Below are positions 1,293 to 37,450 of a DNA stretch of 64,000 nucleotides, piece by piece. The stretch spans positions 496,001 through 560,000 of the forward strand of contig NZ_JAGTWO010000004.1 in NCBI RefSeq assembly GCF_018842675.1, in the 5' to 3' direction. The position numbers were made by a program, and so were the translations under genes. The stretch comes from Candidatus Pantoea bituminis. Lineage in GTDB: Bacteria > Pseudomonadota > Gammaproteobacteria > Enterobacterales > Enterobacteriaceae. Numbering within the stretch: the stretch's first letter is position 1; each line of letters opens with the position of its first letter. Below the pieces are notes generated by a model. It saw only the letters and a program-made list of their open reading frames with translations, did no database searches and was not told the origin of the DNA.

Positions 1293-2696
1293 GTGGCAAA
1301 ATACCAACGATTAATGGATGACGTTCAGCAGCAGATCGAGGCGGGAATCTGGCCGCCAGGCACGAAATTACCCTCCTTGCGCCAGCAGGTCGCGCAGCAA
1401 GGATTGAGTTTAATGACGGTGCTGCATGCTTATGAATTGCTGGAGAGTCAGGGCTGGATTGTTTCACGGCCGCAATCGGGTTACTACGTAGCACCACGCG
1501 CGTTAGCCGTAAAACCGTTAAGCGTGGCGATCAGTGAAAAGGTCGATATCAACGACTTTGTGTTTGATGTATTGCAGGCCACGCGTGATCCCAGCATTGT
1601 GCCGTTTGGTTCCGCTTTTCCCGATCCGGCGCTGTTCCCCCAACGTCAGTTAATGCGCTCGCTGGCAAATGTTTCGCACCAACTCACCGCCTCCGATGCG
1701 CTGCACAATTTACCTCCCGGCAATGCCACCTTGCGTCAGCTGCTGGCGCAACGCTATGCGCGTCAGGGCATTATGTTGTCGCCGGATGAAATCGTCATTA
1801 CCAGCGGCGCGCTGGAAGCGCTGAATCTCAGCCTGCAATCACTGACAGAACCCGGTGATTATGTCGTGATTGAGCAACCCAGTTTTTATGGGGCGCTACA
1901 GGCGATTGAGCGGCTGAAACTCAAAGCGTTGGCGATCCCCAGCGATCCCACCCACGGTATTGATTTAGTTCAGCTTGAAGAGACGCTTCAGCGCTGGCCG
2001 GTAAAAGCGTGCTGGTTAATGACCACGTTGCAAAATCCGCTTGGCGTGACCTTAACGCCGGAGCGCAAACAACAGCTGGTTGAGCTGCTGGCGCAGCATC
2101 AGGTTCCCATGATTGAAGATGATGTCTATTCAGAGCTTTGGAACGGCAACACGCCGCCGTTACCCGCTAAAGCGTGGGATCGTCAGGGAAATGTTTTGCA
2201 CTGCGGCTCATTTTCAAAATCGCTGGTGGCGGGTTTTCGTGTGGGGTGGGTAGCGGCAGGAAAGCATGCGCAACGCATTCAGCGTTTACAGTTAATGAGC
2301 ACTCTCTCTACCAGTGCACCGATGCAGCTGGCGCTGGCAGATTTCCTGGCCACGCGTCGTTATGACGTGCATTTAAAGCGCTTACGGCAGATTTTGGCGA
2401 AGCGACAGCAGATGGCGCGCCAAAGTTTATTGAAAGTGTTACCGGCCAGATCAACGGTGACTGAAGCGTCAGGCGGCTATTTTCTCTGGGTGACGCTACC
2501 AGAAACCATTAATACCATAGCGCTTTATCAGCAAGCTTTGGCTGCAGGTATCAGCATTGCGCCGGGCCAGCTCTTTGCGACGGGCGATCAATTTAATCAC
2601 TGTTTCAGGCTGAATACCGCCTGGCCGTGGGATACGCGGGCCGAGGCGGCAATGGAAACGTTAGGCAGGATAATGGCAGAAATGGCGCAAAGCTAA
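1293..2696 (+). CDS. ydcR: MocR/PdxR-type transcriptional regulator, YdcR-like
   Basis: A 467-residue protein with an N-terminal GntR winged helix (residues ~1-70: LPSLRQQVAQQGLS, SRPQSGYYVAPR) fused to a fold-type-I aminotransferase domain. The PLP lysine is probably in SFSKSL (about residue 310). Length and N-terminal sequence match E. coli YdcR (468 aa) closely. Such proteins use PLP or an aminated ligand as effector; the target genes here are unknown. The start is GTG at 1293, preceded by AAAAAGGAG, and it opens the GntR domain at its usual position. The 3' end overlaps the convergent ylaC stop by a few bases. Confidence 0.9.
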   Translation: MAKYQRLMDDVQQQIEAGIWPPGTKLPSLRQQVAQQGLSLMTVLHAYELLESQGWIVSRPQSGYYVAPRALAVKPLSVAISEKVDINDFVFDVLQATRDPSIVPFGSAFPDPALFPQRQLMRSLANVSHQLTASDALHNLPPGNATLRQLLAQRYARQGIMLSPDEIVITSGALEALNLSLQSLTEPGDYVVIEQPSFYGALQAIERLKLKALAIPSDPTHGIDLVQLEETLQRWPVKACWLMTTLQNPLGVTLTPERKQQLVELLAQHQVPMIEDDVYSELWNGNTPPLPAKAWDRQGNVLHCGSFSKSLVAGFRVGWVAAGKHAQRIQRLQLMSTLSTSAPMQLALADFLATRRYDVHLKRLRQILAKRQQMARQSLLKVLPARSTVTEASGGYFLWVTLPETINTIALYQQALAAGISIAPGQLFATGDQFNHCFRLNTAWPWDTRAEAAMETLGRIMAEMAQS

Positions 2697-3175
2697 ACGC
2701 GCGCCGCTTCCTGATGGCCCCATGTCAGATAGTAAATATCGTAAAAATCCACTTCACCTTTCTGGTTCAGCAAACGCTGAATACCCATTTTTACGCGCTC
2801 CGGTGTTTCCGGCAGTGACAAGATGCGCGACACCGCTTGCTCGCGTACGGGTTGTACGTAATACCATTCGCCGTTGTAGCAAACACGCAGATCCAGCGCA
2901 TCGATATCTTCAAAGCGGTACTTGGGATTGATGTCCATTAACATCAGAAAGCTCATCACCAGCACGAATGCGGTTGCGAACCAAAACGCGGGCCAGCCGA
3001 GCATATCAGTGGTGAAGATTAACGCCACGCACAAGCCGTAGCACAAATACATCACCGCCCACAGGCCGGGATGCTTTCTCAAAAATGACAAGCTAAAGCG
3101 CGGCAAATTGTCGCGGCGTTCTTCGCGGTTAAGCGTGGCAATCTCGTCGATCAGGATTTGTTTAATGTTTTCCAT
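2693..3175 (-). CDS. ylaC: YlaC family inner-membrane protein
   Basis: A 160-residue protein closely resembling E. coli YlaC. It has a charged N-terminus (EERRDNLPRFSLSFLRKHPG), two adjacent hydrophobic segments at about residues 37-58 and 63-81, then a soluble C-terminal part with YRFEDIDALD and RVCYNGEWY. Function of the family is unknown. The upstream GAGGTG is a good ribosome binding site for the ATG at 3175. It is convergent with ydcR (overlapping stops). Its 5' side faces the repeat array. Confidence 0.88.
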   Translation of the reverse strand: MENIKQILIDEIATLNREERRDNLPRFSLSFLRKHPGLWAVMYLCYGLCVALIFTTDMLGWPAFWFATAFVLVMSFLMLMDINPKYRFEDIDALDLRVCYNGEWYYVQPVREQAVSRILSLPETPERVKMGIQRLLNQKGEVDFYDIYYLTWGHQEAARV

Positions 3176-3282
3176 CGTTCACCTCACTTTCATCTGTTGA
3201 TGATTTAAACAGATAACAGTCAAGGTAAGCAGACACAGATTTGTACGGTTTTTATATAACAGTTTGGTGAGACGGGTAAGGT

Positions 3283-4160
3283 GCGCGCAGCCGCATGCTG
3301 TCACCGAATTCGCAGGTTGCAGCATCTTCCTCCCCCATTTATGGGGGAGGACTGAGGAGGGGGACAAACGACTTCCTCTGCGCGCTGCCCCCATCCCGGC
3401 CTTCCCCCGTTTTGACGGGGAAGGCGACGCTGCCGCATGCTGTCACCGAATTTGCAGGTTGCAGCATCTTCCTCTTCCATTTATGGGAGAGGACCGAGGT
3501 GGGGGACAAACGACTTCCTCTGCGCGCTGCCCCCATCCCGGCCTTCCCCCGTTTTGACGGGGAAGGAGACGCTGCCGCATGCCGTCACCGAATTCGCAGG
3601 TTGCAGCATCTTCCTCCCCCATTTATGGGGGAGGACCGAGGTGGGGGACAAACGACTTCCTCTGCGCGCTGCCCCCATCCCGGCCTTCCCCCGTTTTGAC
3701 GGGGGAAGGAGACGCTGCCGCATGCTGTCACCGAATTCGCAGGTTGCAGCATCTTCCTCTTCCATTTATGGGAGAGGGCCGAGGTGGGGGACAAACGACT
3801 TCCTCTGCGCGCTGCCCCCATCCCGGCCTTCCCCCGTTTTGACGGGGAAGGAGACGCTGCCGCATGCTGTCACCGAATTCGCATGTTGCAGCATCTTCCT
3901 CCCCATTTATGGGGGAGGACCGAGGTGGGGGACAAACGACCTCGCACTAAAAAGCCGAGGTGGGGGACAAACGACTTCCTCTGCGCGCTGCCCCCATCCC
4001 GGCCTTCCCCGTTTTGACGGGGAAGGAGACGCTGCCGCATGCTGTCACCGAATTCGCATGTTGCAGCATCTTCCTCCCCATTTATAGGGGAGGACCGAGG
4101 TGGAGGACAAACCACCTCGCATATGGGGGGACCGAGGTGGGGGACAAACGACCTCGCCCT
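3283..4160. repeat. Tandem array of ~142-bp multi-hairpin repeat (five to six units)
   Basis: Head-to-tail copies recur with the phrase GACAAACGACTTCC at 3363, 3505, 3647, 3790 and, diverged or partial, at 3931, 3966, 4106 and 4143. Spacing is 142, 142, 143 and 141 bases. Each unit holds a stem CCTTCCCCCG/CGGGGAAGG, a less perfect GACGCTGC/GCAGCATC pairing around TGTCACCGAATTCGC, and a stem TCCTCCCCC/GGGGGAGGA with a short AT loop. The last two units are degraded and contain small internal duplications. Long open frames across the array on both strands are products of the repeat and not credible genes. Single copies occur in the opposite orientation near 27.4 and 37.3 kb. Confidence 0.93.
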
Positions 4161-4256
4161 CACTCATCAAAATCCTCGAGCCGGCTCCAGAATTCTACTC
4201 ACCTCACTTTCATCCAATACTGTTCTCACTCATGCTGCGCAAAAAGAGGAACCCCT

Positions 4257-4607
4257 ATGCGCCATGGAATTGAACGCAGCCGTGAATTACGACGAAACGC
4301 AACCGATGCCGAACGTTTACTCTGGCGTTATTTGCGCCATAAACAGTGTCTCGGCCAGCGTTTTAGGCGACAACATCTCATCGGCCCTTACATTGTGGAC
4401 TTCGCCTGCCTTGAACAACATTTGGTGATCGAGCTCGACGGTTCGCAGCATGCCGACGCGCATCGTTACGACACACAACGCACACATTACCTCAGCTATC
4501 TCGGCTGGCACGTGCTGCGCTTCTGGAATCATGACGTACTAAAGCAACCAGAAGCAGTGATCACAGCGGTCATAAACGCATTCACCAGGAAGTCACAAAA
4601 CTGTTAA
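4257..4607 (+). CDS. DUF559 endonuclease-like protein
   Basis: A 116-residue protein with the DUF559 pattern, related to the Vsr/restriction-endonuclease-like fold: RNATDAERLLWRYLR, QRFRRQHLIGPYIVDFAC, LVIELDGSQHA and GWHVLRFWNHDVL. The putative catalytic residues are the D of VDFAC, the E and D of IELDGSQH and nearby Gln/His. This is the family arrangement, but no activity is proved for most members. The start is ATG 4257, preceded by AAAAAGAGGA. Longer upstream extensions run into the repeat array and are rejected. The gene begins ~100 bases after the last repeat unit, suggesting a functional link (inference). Confidence 0.85.
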   Translation: MRHGIERSRELRRNATDAERLLWRYLRHKQCLGQRFRRQHLIGPYIVDFACLEQHLVIELDGSQHADAHRYDTQRTHYLSYLGWHVLRFWNHDVLKQPEAVITAVINAFTRKSQNC

Positions 4608-4719: not shown

Positions 4720-5322
4720 ATGACTGCTAAAATTTCCAGTCTGATGTTACTGATGTCCTTCGCTGCGGGTACGTTCTCAGCTGGCGCGTCTGATAATCCT
4801 CAGCATCTGATGTTATCGACGCCATCGGGCGGTGTGCCGAACAATCCCTTGCCGCTGATTATCTGGCCGCGCGTGGTGCCGGATGACCAGGAAGACAAAG
4901 CTGCGTGGTTTGAAAAAACCTTTGCACAGCATGGTTGGCCACCAGCGTGGCGCTATCCTATTTTTCCCTATACCCATTATCACCCGAACACGCATGAGCT
5001 TCTTGGCGTAGCGGAAGGCTGGGCAGAAGTGTTGTTTGGCGGTGACAGCGGCCGCATGGTGACGCTGCGGGCTGGGGATGCGGTATTAATTCCGGCAGGT
5101 GTTGGGCATAAACAAATTCATGCCAGCGACGATTTTATCGCCGTCGGCGCCTATCCTGAAGGAATGTCACCCGAAACGCTGCGTGACGAGCCGGACAAAC
5201 TCCAACATTCGCTGGTACAGATAAAACAGGTACCCATGCCAACCCGCGATCCTTTTACGGGTAAAGCGGGCGCAATGACAGAGATTTGGGCACCTGTAGC
5301 CAATCTGACATCGCACCAATAA
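4720..5322 (+). CDS. Exported cupin-domain protein
   Basis: A 200-residue protein with an N-terminal signal peptide (hydrophobic ISSLMLLMSFAAGTFSAGA). A single cupin barrel follows, with HYHPNTHELLGVAEGWAEV as motif 1 and GDAVLIPAGVGHKQI as motif 2, giving the His/Glu metal ligands. It resembles YjlB-like cupins, but the exported location is unusual for those. Substrate unknown. ATG 4720 follows AAAAAAGGAG; the upstream in-frame start is rejected because it would bury the signal peptide. Confidence 0.78.
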   Translation: MTAKISSLMLLMSFAAGTFSAGASDNPQHLMLSTPSGGVPNNPLPLIIWPRVVPDDQEDKAAWFEKTFAQHGWPPAWRYPIFPYTHYHPNTHELLGVAEGWAEVLFGGDSGRMVTLRAGDAVLIPAGVGHKQIHASDDFIAVGAYPEGMSPETLRDEPDKLQHSLVQIKQVPMPTRDPFTGKAGAMTEIWAPVANLTSHQ

Positions 5323-10762: not shown

Positions 10763-13611
10763 ATGGATAATAATTCTGATGTCATGTATCGAATGCTGGT
10801 TCAAAGCGTGATCGATTACGCTATTTACATGTTGAAGCCGGACGGAACCGTGGCGAACTGGAATACAGGGGCGCAGCGGGCCAAAGGTTATACACCAGAA
10901 GAGATCGTCGGAAAAAACTTTGCGCTGTTTTACAGCGAGGCAGACCGTCTAAAAGGCATGCCGCAGCGCAGTCTGGAAACAGCGTCTATCACTGGACGTT
11001 TTGAAACCGAAGGCTGGCGCTACCGTAAAGATGGCAGCGCGTTTTGGGCGCATGTCATCATTGATGCTATTCGCGACGATTACGGCCAGCTACTGGGTTT
11101 TGCCAAAATCACCCGCGACTGCACACAGCAACAAGAGCAGCAGCGTAAAGCGCGCGAAGACGAAGCCCGTTTTCGTTTATTGGTCGAGGGCGTGACCGAT
11201 TACGCGATCTATATGCTGGATCACGACGGCAACGTAGTGAACTGGAATGCCGGGGCGCAGCGCGCCAAAGGCTACGTAGCAGAAGAAATTGTTGGCAAAC
11301 ACTTCTCGCGCTTTTACAGCGTACAGGATCGGCTGGAGCACATCCCCAACAAGAACCTCCAAACCGCGTTTAAGACCGGACGTTTCGAAGATGAAGGCTG
11401 GCGCTATCGCAAAGATGGCAGCGCGTTTTGGGCGCATGTGGTCATCGATGCCATACGCGACGAAGCTGGCAAACTTATCGGTTACGCTAAAATCACCCGC
11501 GACTGTACCGAGCAGCAACGTATCCGCCGCGAGCAGCACGAACAGGCAGAACGCTTCCGTCTGTTAGTCGAAGGCGTTACCGATTACGCCATTTATATGC
11601 TCGACGTTAAAGGCCACGTGGTGAACTGGAACGCGGGCGCGCAGCGCGCCAAAGGCTATGTTGCTGAGGAGATCGTCGGACAGCACTTCTCCCTGTTTTA
11701 CAGCTCGCAAGACCGCGCGATGAATTTACCTGAAGCCAACCTGGGTATTGCGATGAAAACCGGGCGCTTTGAGGATGAAGGCTGGCGCTATCGCAAAGAT
11801 GGCAGCGCGTTTTGGGCGCATGTGGTCATCGACGCGATTCATGACGAAGAGGGCAAGCTGCTTGGCTTCGCTAAAATTACCCGCGACAACACCGATCGCC
11901 GTGAGCAGGAGCAGCTGTTACTGCGCGCCAAAGATCAGGCTGAGGCGCAAAGCGCGCAAAAACCGCACTATCGAAGTTCCTCGATAACATCATTACCCAT
12001 ATTCCTTCCTGCGTGATTGTGGAAGACGCGATTACCCGCGAAATCTTGCTGGTCAACGACCAGTCGCAAAAGCTGTTTGGCCTCTCCAAATCGCTGATTG
12101 TAAACAAGCGGCCGCATGAGTGCATGTCGCCAGAGTTGAGTGATTATTTCAACAGCCTGGCCGATATGGCGCTGCGCAGCGAAGGTATTCATGAGCGTGA
12201 GCAGCTGATGATCACCGCTAGCGGCGAGCGCATTTTGCACACCCGCGCCACGGCAATTAGCGGTCAGGATGCGCGCCAAAATTATCTGATGCTGATTGTG
12301 GAAGATGTCACCGATCAGCGTGCCGCCGACGCACGCATTCATCATATGGCGCACCACGATAACCTCACCAGCTTGCCAAACCGCATCCTGTTCCGCCAGC
12401 GTCTGAGCGAAGCGCTGCGGCAGGATGGACACAATCAAAAGCAGACTGCCGCGCTGTGCCTCGACCTTGATAACTTCAAAAACGTCAACGATGCACTCGG
12501 CCACCAAATTGGTGATGACCTGCTGCGCGTGGTGGCGAAACGCCTGCGTAATACTTTACGCGACCACGATACGCTGGCGCGCATTGGCGGTGACGAATTT
12601 GCTGTCGTGCTGCCGTCGGTTAGCAATGCAGATGAAGCCAGCATTGTGGCGCAGCGTCTGATCGAAGCGATTCGTCCGCCGGTTAATATCGAAGGGCATA
12701 ACTTATCGGTTGGGTTAAGCGTCGGCATTGCACTAAGCGCCAGCATTACCAACACGCCGGAGCAGCTGCTGCGCTGTGCTGACATGGCGTTGTACGAGGC
12801 TAAACGCAACGGCCGCAACCGACACGAACACTTTACGCTGGCGATGGATGATGTAGCGCGCAGCCGTCGCGTAATTGAAAATGATCTGCGCGAAGCCATC
12901 AGCGGCCGCCAGCTCAAACTCTATTACCAGCCAATCACCAACGGCGATAACAAAACCATTATCGGTTATGAAGCGCTGATGCGCTGGCATCACCCGATTA
13001 AGGGGCTGATCATGCCGAATGATTTTATCCCAATAGCGGAAGAAACCGGGCTGATTCACATGTTGGGCGCTTTTGCGTTGTATGACGCCTGTCGTGAAGC
13101 CGCCAGTTGGGAGGGGGAACAATCGGTGTCGGTGAATCTGTCGCCGCTGCAGTTCAAAAACAGCTCGCTGGTGTCGGTGGTTGAAGGTGCGCTGCAAGAA
13201 TCTGGGCTGAATCCAAGCCGACTGGAAGTGGAGATTACTGAATCGGTATTGCTGGATGATTCGCTGGGCAACATCCGGACGCTTGAAAGCCTTAAAGCGT
13301 TGGGCGTACAGATTGCACTGGATGACTTCGGCACCGGCTATTCATCGCTGAGCTATCTGCGCTCGTTCCCGTTCGACAAGATTAAAATCGATAAGTCATT
13401 CATTAATGACATGGGCGACAGTCGCGAAGCGCTGGCAATTATTCGCGCCATTACGGGGATGAGCCGCAGTCTGGATATTCAGATCACGGCTGAGGGCGTC
13501 GAAAGCAGCGAGCAGTTTGCCAAACTGCGCGAAGAGGGCTGTACCCTGTTCCAGGGGTATCTGTTTGGTCGTCCACAGCCTTCGGAACTGCGCCTAAAAG
13601 CGCTCAGCTAA
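10763..13611 (+). CDS. PAS-PAS-PAS-PAS-GGDEF-EAL cyclic-di-GMP protein (frameshifted)
   Basis: About 949 residues once one A is restored in the run at 11958-11962 (SAQK then TALSKFLDNIITHIPSC). Three near-identical PAS domains start at about residues 12, 140 and 268, with an exact 128-codon period (YAIYML, NWN-GAQRAKGY, GWRYRKDGSAFWAHV). A fourth, unrelated PAS spans about 400-520. The GGDEF domain is intact (RIGGDEFAVVLPS), as is the EAL domain (YEALMRWHHP, DDFGTGYSSLSYL, AEGVES). Both synthesis and hydrolysis of cyclic-di-GMP are possible. There is no membrane segment, so cytoplasmic sensing is likely. The ribosome binding site before ATG 10763 is weak. The stop overlaps the convergent LacI gene. 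Confidence 0.9.
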
Positions 13612-27391: not shown

Positions 27392-27545
27392 TTTGGGGGC
27401 GAGGTCGTTTGTCCCCAACCTCAATCCTCCCCCATAAATGGGGAGGAAGACGCTGCTTTATGCCAGCCCGGAATTGGCAGGTGGCAGCGTCTCCTTCCTC
27501 CGCTTTGCGGGGGAAGGCCGGGATGGGGGATAGCGCGCACCGCAC
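27392..27545. repeat. Single copy of the multi-hairpin repeat, inverted relative to the array
   Basis: The sequence reads as the reverse complement of an array unit: GAGGTCGTTTGTCCCC, a CCTCCCCCATAAATGGGGAGG stem, GACGCTGC pairing with GCAGCGTC, a CCTTCC-GGGGAAGG stem and GGGATGGGGGATAGCGCGCA. It lies between the M20 gene and prfC. Confidence 0.88.
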
Positions 27546-37303: not shown

Positions 37304-37450
37304 TGCGGGGTCGTTTGCCCCCACCTCAGTCCTCCCCACGCGTGGGGAGGAAGATGCTGCAACATGCGAGTATTGAAGCTAAATGTGGCAGCGTCTCCTT
37401 CCCGCTTCGCGGGGAAGGTTGGGATGGGGGACAGCGCGCACCTTCCCTCT
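37304..37450. repeat. Single copy of the multi-hairpin repeat after deoD
   Basis: Same layout and orientation as the copy at 27392: GGGGTCGTTTGCCCCC, a CCTCCCCACGCGTGGGGAGG stem, GATGCTGC...GGCAGCGTCTCC, TTCCCGCTTCGCGGGGAAGG and GGGATGGGGGACAGCGCGCA. It lies between deoD and the PBP2 paralogue. Confidence 0.88.

Follow-up and report, generated by a model that had tools for sequence, protein, structure and literature searches.

Single-domain DUF559 nucleases as probable partners of intrastrand triplex repeats in bacterial genomes

Between ylaC and a cupin gene, the window (the whole stretch of DNA analysed here, 64,000 nucleotides) carries a tandem repeat array and a DUF559 gene, the array ending about 100 bp 5' of the gene. 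The features of this locus, together with two repeat pairs found elsewhere in the window and absent from the preliminary description, are as follows.

2693-3175, minus strand: ylaC (PF10777), Pfam match.
3266-4605, no strand: segment that relatives lack, the space between ylaC and the cupin gene being filled there by a short variable stretch; sequence match and fetched relatives.
3271-4157, no strand: tandem array with a unit of 142-175 bp and two different inverted triplex motifs per unit; Tandem Repeats Finder.
3328-3364, plus strand: triplex motif of the TCCTCCCCC type, with pyrimidine arm, loop, purine arm, linker and mirror tail; scan, at most one mismatch.
3389-3425, minus strand: triplex motif of the CCTTCCCCC type; triplex scan, at most one mismatch.
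3530-3566, minus strand: triplex motif of the CCTTCCCCC type; triplex scan, at most one mismatch.
3612-3648, plus strand: triplex motif of the TCCTCCCCC type, 9 of 10 triads fitting; scan, DNA fold -11.5 kcal/mol, z -2.75.
3671-3709, minus strand: triplex motif of the CCTTCCCCC type, 9 of 10 triads fitting; scan, DNA fold -13.8 kcal/mol, z -3.78.
3815-3851, minus strand: triplex motif of the CCTTCCCCC type; triplex scan, at most one mismatch.
3897-3931, plus strand: triplex motif of the TCCTCCCCC type; triplex scan, at most one mismatch.
3991-4026, minus strand: triplex motif of the CCTTCCCC type; triplex scan, at most one mismatch.
4072-4105, plus strand: triplex motif of the TCCTCCCC type, the scanned copy closest to the DUF559 gene; triplex scan, at most one mismatch.
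4257-4607, plus strand: DUF559 gene, 116 aa, Vsr-fold nuclease; intact open reading frame, PF04480 match.
4720-5322: cupin gene, Pfam match.
27414-27529, no strand: dispersed pair, its two triplexes inverted with the hairpins innermost and the tails outermost; scan, fold z -4.6.
37318-37429, no strand: dispersed pair, hairpins inside and tails outside; scan, fold z -5.8.

Tandem Repeats Finder resolves the array into three periods: 142 bp at 3271-3940 (4.7 copies, 94% match), 175 bp at 3778-4152 and 37 bp at 4084-4157. Folded as single-stranded DNA, the unit at 3612-3709 reaches -35.6 kcal/mol, whereas shuffled versions average -18.5 (z -6.7) and none of 200 equalled it. The preliminary description of a tandem unit of about 142 bp with two strong stems, ending about 100 bp before the DUF559 gene, is borne out by both repeat finding and folding. 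In the window genome the array-plus-gene stretch finds 58 matches and DUF559 a single one; one triplex type has 52 exact matches there, against one DUF559 gene. Rfam microRNA families of plants and animals matched the array far below the gathering scores, and these matches were rejected as composition artefacts.

On the plus strand the unit consists of TCCTCCCCC-loop-GGGGGAGGA, a 3-nt linker and then AGGTGGGGG, and on the minus strand of CCTTCCCCC-loop-GGGGGAAGG, a 3-nt linker and then GGATGGGGG; the tail of each stem, read backwards, restates its purine arm, with either T or A facing A. This G-rich tail mirroring the purine arm after every stem, which the preliminary description did not contain, marks the repeat, judged by its base pattern, as an intrastrand triplex (TM/PIT) element, a known motif that follows the purine-motif triplex code. 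The window copies conform, with at most one mismatch, to the triplex rule of a hairpin plus a third block, with G·GC and A/T·AT triads in mirror order. The same code is found in the main set of DUF559 loci. Its 80 members, drawn from named genomes across many phyla, are the best-scoring among 575 confirmed loci, so that the set leans to close relatives of the window protein. Hairpins with a G-rich tail numbered 151 in the flanks of these genes and occurred in 67 of the 80 loci (best 80 of 575); 108 of the 151 were perfect in mirror order versus 35 in direct alignment, and 500 swaps of tails between loci gave a mean of 24 and a maximum of 36 perfect hairpins, figures that serve as a guide rather than a probability because the loci are related. 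Linkers of 3 nt were present in 104 and of 2 nt in 20 of the 128 near-perfect copies, and the foot of the tested copies is a linker of 2-3 nt with a G-rich tail. There are several arm types, and most of them come with their own matching tail. At four loci (L048, L108, L119 and L160) the linker itself appears by eye to be a small hairpin, with the mirror tail retained.

The motif, earlier called PIT elements, was reportedly described by Hoyne et al. in 2000, and a later functional study of PIT is said to have followed. The TM/PIT elements (TMECO) presented in passages of PMC4666352 likewise combine a hairpin with a mirror tail, a 3-nt linker (TTA or CCG) and inverted pairs of two types; the CCTTCCCCC/TCCTCCCCC type of the window and the forms whose linker holds a hairpin are variants beyond these. 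According to parts of that paper (Holder et al. 2015, PMC4666352), the E. coli motif forms a triplex in vitro, in vivo DMS footprinting gave no triplex signal, and the motif is tied to genome instability; those parts report no common class of flanking gene and no mobile-element link for triplex motifs. The terms DUF559, endonuclease and ycjD are absent from its main text.

The window protein matches PF04480 (DUF559) at 136.5 bits, with a cut-off of 20.6, and covers positions 5-106 of the 109 of the profile, as expected from the preliminary description of a 116-residue DUF559 protein with a Vsr-like nuclease pattern. DUF559 is a widespread family that is still labelled a domain of unknown function. 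Its protein has the Vsr-type fold common to EDxHD homing endonucleases, and the acidic and histidine residues E19, D48, D61, H65 and D72 are invariant. The only Pfam matches of the window protein are PF04480 and PF18741, which, with the Vsr-type fold, sets it apart from the tyrosine transposases (RAYT); PF03852 (Vsr) was not among its matches at E 0.001, and it scored 19.7 bits against TIGR00632 (Vsr), below the cut-off of 97.85. I-Bth0305I (3r3p), which we take to be an EDxHD homing endonuclease, has 18% identity to the DUF559 protein, and we know of no triplex borders for it. The window protein also bears a weak likeness to ProA, an anti-phage protein, scoring 18.4 bits and thus far under the ProA cut-off. 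Viral contigs searched with the window protein gave no relative, and plasmid records gave few (45 of 72,556); 29 of the 30 plasmid relatives listed lie on replicons larger than 100 kb, so that small plasmids are not the usual vehicle.

Triplexes are concentrated immediately beside DUF559 genes. Around the main set (best 80 of 575), the density of strict triplexes is 6.9/kb within 100 bp and 1.8/kb at 100-200 bp, and falls to 0.16/kb at 400-800 bp and 0.025/kb at 5-10 kb. The strict scan found a triplex within 400 bp in 69 of these best 80 of 575 loci; with longer linkers allowed and a limit of 300 bp it was 73 of 80, versus 2 of 305 control windows of equal size placed at least 1 kb from the DUF559 gene. 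Within 300 bp, triplexes were likewise found at 23 of 24 loci of the family set (controls 2/96), 22 of 25 of the phylum set (2/100), 9 of 10 of the genus set (0/40) and, among genomes with several DUF559 genes, 17 of 18 (1/72) and 52 of 60, the latter a set without controls. The family, phylum, genus and Vsr sets consist of best-scoring loci, and the six DUF559 sets overlap, some of the 60-locus set recurring in another; the 300-bp count leaves out L010 and L024 (where the contig ends at the gene), L308 among the Vsr loci, and any DUF559 locus no longer than 2.9 kb. Genes for Vsr, a nuclease of the same fold, had triplex flanks within 300 bp in none of 29 cases, unlike single-domain DUF559, and the strict scan at 400 bp gave 16 of 26 for the phylum set versus 0 of 29 for Vsr. 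Weak DUF559 matches, which lie mostly inside large proteins, had triplex flanks at 1 of 10 loci; among L035, L037, L038, L258-L261 and L263-L265 that one is L258.

The placement of the copies is as regular as their presence. In the main set (best 80 of 575), tails point toward the gene in 96 of the 114 nearest copies, copies lie upstream at 59 loci and downstream at 55, and both sides are occupied at 46 of 80, an arrangement of inverted flanking copies otherwise typical of REP-RAYT systems; at the window gene, copies are on the left side only, the scan having found no right-hand (3') triplex. Many homologous proteins in a public set end, by eye and uncounted, in translated repeat sequence. The draft contigs of L010 and L024 stop at or just past the DUF559 gene, the last 32 bases of L024 being a repeat start, as if flanking repeats broke the assembly. 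That the association of DUF559 with triplexes is real and specific we regard as nearly certain.

Left and right copies are inverted with respect to each other and largely specific to their gene, even among the DUF559 genes of one genome. When left flanks were compared with inverted right flanks over 79 named loci (from the best 80 of 575), the median score was 25 for two flanks of one locus and 10 for flanks of different loci, and the own partner flank ranked first of 79 in 31 loci. In 27 genomes with at least two DUF559 genes (78 genes), the median is 30, and pairing with the remaining genes of that genome gives 11.5; the own partner flank is best for 56 of 78 genes versus 27 expected, and the flank scores add up to a value 7.5 standard deviations higher than shuffling within genomes gives. 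At 7 of 20 loci from multi-gene genomes the left and right sides share inverted repeats of 41-51 bp with 95% identity or better; the window gene has none. Arm type is shared with the nearest DUF559 of another genus in 41% of 68 loci versus 12% after shuffling, a comparison in which kinship above the genus was left in.

The array and gene also behave as a unit that is present or absent at defined sites. In 15 of 19 fetched relatives (L228-L246) the ylaC-cupin gap is contiguous and holds neither array nor gene, an outcome that goes beyond the preliminary description, which had suggested a comparison with repeat-empty sites; in the other four, ylaC and the cupin gene lie apart or one is absent from the stretch. 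In G603, query positions 1-667 and 2006-2723 match just 52 bp apart. The last codons of the window DUF559 gene resemble, by eye, the empty site of the relatives, and this likeness at the stop codon, with no triplex after the gene, indicates that the right-hand copy is missing at the window gene. For a second genus, 80 genomes around G550 were compared, presence and absence being counted by hand among the matches listed. A DUF559 unit of 548 bp, lying where a pheT-type gene begins, was present in 12 and precisely absent from at least 11 genomes among the matches listed, and a 496-bp unit between a trpB-type PALP-domain gene and a trpA-type gene was present in 15 and precisely absent from at least 33; the remaining genomes have other arrangements at both sites, and the names pheT, trpB and trpA rest on Pfam domains. 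The inserted segments extend about 20-60 bp past the hairpins at both sites. Both sites show a 3-bp flank overlap (TGA) that was considered as a target duplication and rejected as proof of one, because it coincides with overlapping stop and start codons and because G704 carries a different insert at the pheT-type junction that holds the DUF559 unit in G550.

Co-occurrence over whole genomes, a check proposed in the preliminary description, was assessed in 398 genomes with one triplex type, CCCTCACCC..CCCTCTCCC..GGGAGAGGG, and with strong DUF559 matches defined as E 4.6e-13 or better, so that 35 genomes with weaker matches were scored negative. A backward control pattern matched in none of the 398 genomes. 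Strong DUF559 was present in 110 and the triplex in 82, with both in 67, the repeat only in 15, DUF559 only in 43 and neither in 273 (OR 28, p 7e-32); stratified by family (20 families, assigned by hand), the OR was 21 (p 6e-12), versus 1.9 (p 0.02) for Vsr and the triplex in the same 398 genomes. The 43 of 110 DUF559 genomes without the repeat are those without the one triplex type searched. Genomes with many repeats and no DUF559 gene, named in the preliminary description as evidence against the link, do occur (15 of the 82 repeat-bearing genomes, and 8 of 38 with at least 10 copies, lack a strong match), and most repeat genomes do have DUF559, as 30 of those 38 do. The 15 indicate that repeats can outlast the enzyme or do without it; 100%-complete genomes of this kind are G486, with 79 copies and only a weak match, and G019, with 24 copies. 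G334, a genome 87% complete, is triplex-rich and has neither a matching nor any strong DUF559.

The 61 genomes of the window genus give a finer view, repeats being divided into type A (the CCTTCCCC pattern) and type B (the CCCTCTCCC pattern). Strong DUF559 is found in 12 of the 61, and repeats of either type occur in all 12 versus 3 of the 49 others, namely G597 (23 copies), G633 (4) and G627 (1). Type-A repeats were present in 5 of 5 genomes with a type-A gene (19-52 copies) and type-B repeats in 8 of 8 with a type-B gene (16-82 copies). G634 holds both genes, each bordered, by eye, by its own repeat type with one copy imperfect; its gene G634a was assigned to type A by its ylaC position and the adjoining type-A repeat, not by protein comparison. 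The reverse fails: G606 has 31 type-A repeats and only a type-B gene, G602 and G607 have 35 type-B repeats each and only a type-A gene, and the 23 repeats of G597, which has no gene, are of type B, with a few low-copy cases besides. Since genes of both types always come with their own repeats and the reverse does not hold, the matching of gene and repeat is one-directional: the enzyme accompanies the repeat, and the repeat can persist without the enzyme. Recent loss, cross-mobilisation or another enzyme are alternatives for the repeat-rich genomes without a matching DUF559 (G606, G602, G607, G597, G486, G019 and G334). The link between repeat and nuclease, which had been drawn by position only, thus no longer depends on one genome, being cross-phylum, rare farther from the gene, absent at the 29 Vsr genes examined, expressed in largely gene-specific flanks and retained as co-occurrence within families.

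In E. coli K-12 the DUF559 gene ycjD has a degenerate copy overlapping its end, and a clear triplex lies between ycjD and fabI; the latter is E. coli motif No. 9, at 1,351,239-1,351,204, in a portion of Holder et al. 2015 (PMC4666352). The ycjD region is covered to at least 80% in 3362 of 5426 E. coli genomes, and the two strains inspected that lack the region have other genes there, so that neither gave a clean empty ycjD site. In E. coli ETEC6 (L166) an IS1 element splits ycjD.

The closest parallel among known systems is REP/BIME/REPIN-RAYT, in which, as passages of Nunvar 2010 (PMC2817692) and Di Nocera 2013 (PMC3733652) describe, inverted palindromes flank the gene, gene and repeat match or co-evolve, non-autonomous pairs exist and repeats go with the presence of the gene. 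The RAYT case, as set out in sections of Nunvar 2010 (PMC2817692), rests on inverted flanks, gene-repeat sequence match and repeats going with gene presence, and these three kinds of evidence are also found here for DUF559. The parts differ: RAYT, in the same sources, is a tyrosine transposase with GTAG-tagged REPs, whereas a Vsr fold and a mirror-tail repeat are found here. The comparison with REP-RAYT made in the preliminary description therefore holds as a way of working, through flanks and co-occurrence, and does not hold as kinship, given the Vsr fold and the intrastrand triplexes. No paper linking DUF559 with triplex repeats was found in the open-licence literature; repeats and enzyme family are each known, and their pairing appears new, a variant of REP-RAYT by logic and unrelated to it by parts.

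DUF559 is most likely a nuclease of the Vsr fold by which the triplexes at its flanks are mobilised or amplified. The driver unit would be a DUF559 gene with inverted triplexes at both sides, tails mostly toward the gene, and the dispersed inverted pairs would be its non-autonomous derivatives. In a single-stranded state, as on the lagging strand or during repair or transcription, the repeat may fold into a triplex, the Vsr-like nuclease would recognise its cognate triplex type and nick or cut nearby, and repair or recombination would then copy the unit to a new intergenic site or expand it in tandem; we infer that the folded repeat is recognised, that the nuclease cuts, and that the cut causes the spread or copying. 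A functional partnership of DUF559 and triplex appears very likely to us, and we consider it probable that single-domain DUF559 nucleases are a dedicated partner of triplex repeats, with some mobilisation or amplification. Tentatively, and with slightly less than an even chance, they would form a cross-phylum class of minimal mobile elements, in which a Vsr-fold enzyme reads triplex borders, copies itself and non-autonomous pairs, and is the source of triplex repeats in hundreds of bacterial genomes.

The strongest rival, which overlaps in part with this explanation, is copying of the homing type, in which a selfish gene would cut the empty site and be copied by recombination, the triplexes being mere borders (resection blocks or terminators) and the dispersed pairs what is left where a gene copy has been lost. 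Both its parts together strike us as rather unlikely; repeats far outnumber genes (52 pattern matches versus one gene in the window genome), and tandem arrays would require an additional route. It is also unlikely, and more so, that the association is a passenger effect, in which an unrelated enzyme, slippage or recombination would spread the repeats, and these would gather around DUF559 genes because both settle in permissive intergenic sites. The 15 orphan repeat genomes and the pheT-type start, occupied by a DUF559 unit in G550 and by a different insert in G704, would fit such an effect, but it leaves unexplained that Vsr, an accessory nuclease of similar size, has no triplex flanks and only weak co-occurrence, that flank pairs are inverted and largely gene-specific inside one genome, and that triplex density drops so steeply away from the gene (best 80 of 575 loci).

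Host functions can be weighed against the same observations. If DUF559 were a VSP-type mismatch or structure-specific nuclease of host repair or restriction, triplexes would be gene control elements or natural lesions, a reading for which the Vsr fold speaks, as does Caulobacter VsrA, a DUF559-domain protein that leads to SOS without the cytosine methylase and whose authors propose a mismatch repair role, in passages of PMC12907096 that mention no link to dispersed repeats. True Vsr genes, however, have no such flanks, and gene-specific inverted flanks and co-occurrence with dispersed repeats are left without explanation, so we hold a repair role to be improbable. Far less credible still is that the repeats do no more than terminate transcription or stabilise mRNA and border small genes by chance: termination was proposed for the one hundred CCCTCTCCC..GGGAGAGGG palindromes of Enterobacter sp. 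638 (in part of PMC2869309), but copies occur about as often upstream as downstream of DUF559 (best 80 of 575 loci), PIT motifs had neither promoter nor terminator activity in earlier work cited in portions of Holder et al. (PMC4666352), and termination needs no tail that mirrors an arm.

In passages of PMC4666352, which cites Hoyne et al. 2000, triplex repeats have no known origin, function or pattern of flanking genes, and joining them to DUF559 gives repeat and enzyme each a testable role. The proposed link could account for the spread of a single repeat design to many phyla, and beside RAYT there would be a second, unrelated enzyme superfamily that maintains palindromic repeats in bacterial genomes; with ycjD beside the published triplex copy No. 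9, the link is testable in E. coli K-12. Elsewhere in the window, Tandem Repeats Finder reports a further repeat at 10994-11887 (384 bp, 2.3 copies, 76% match), perhaps a duplicated coding domain.
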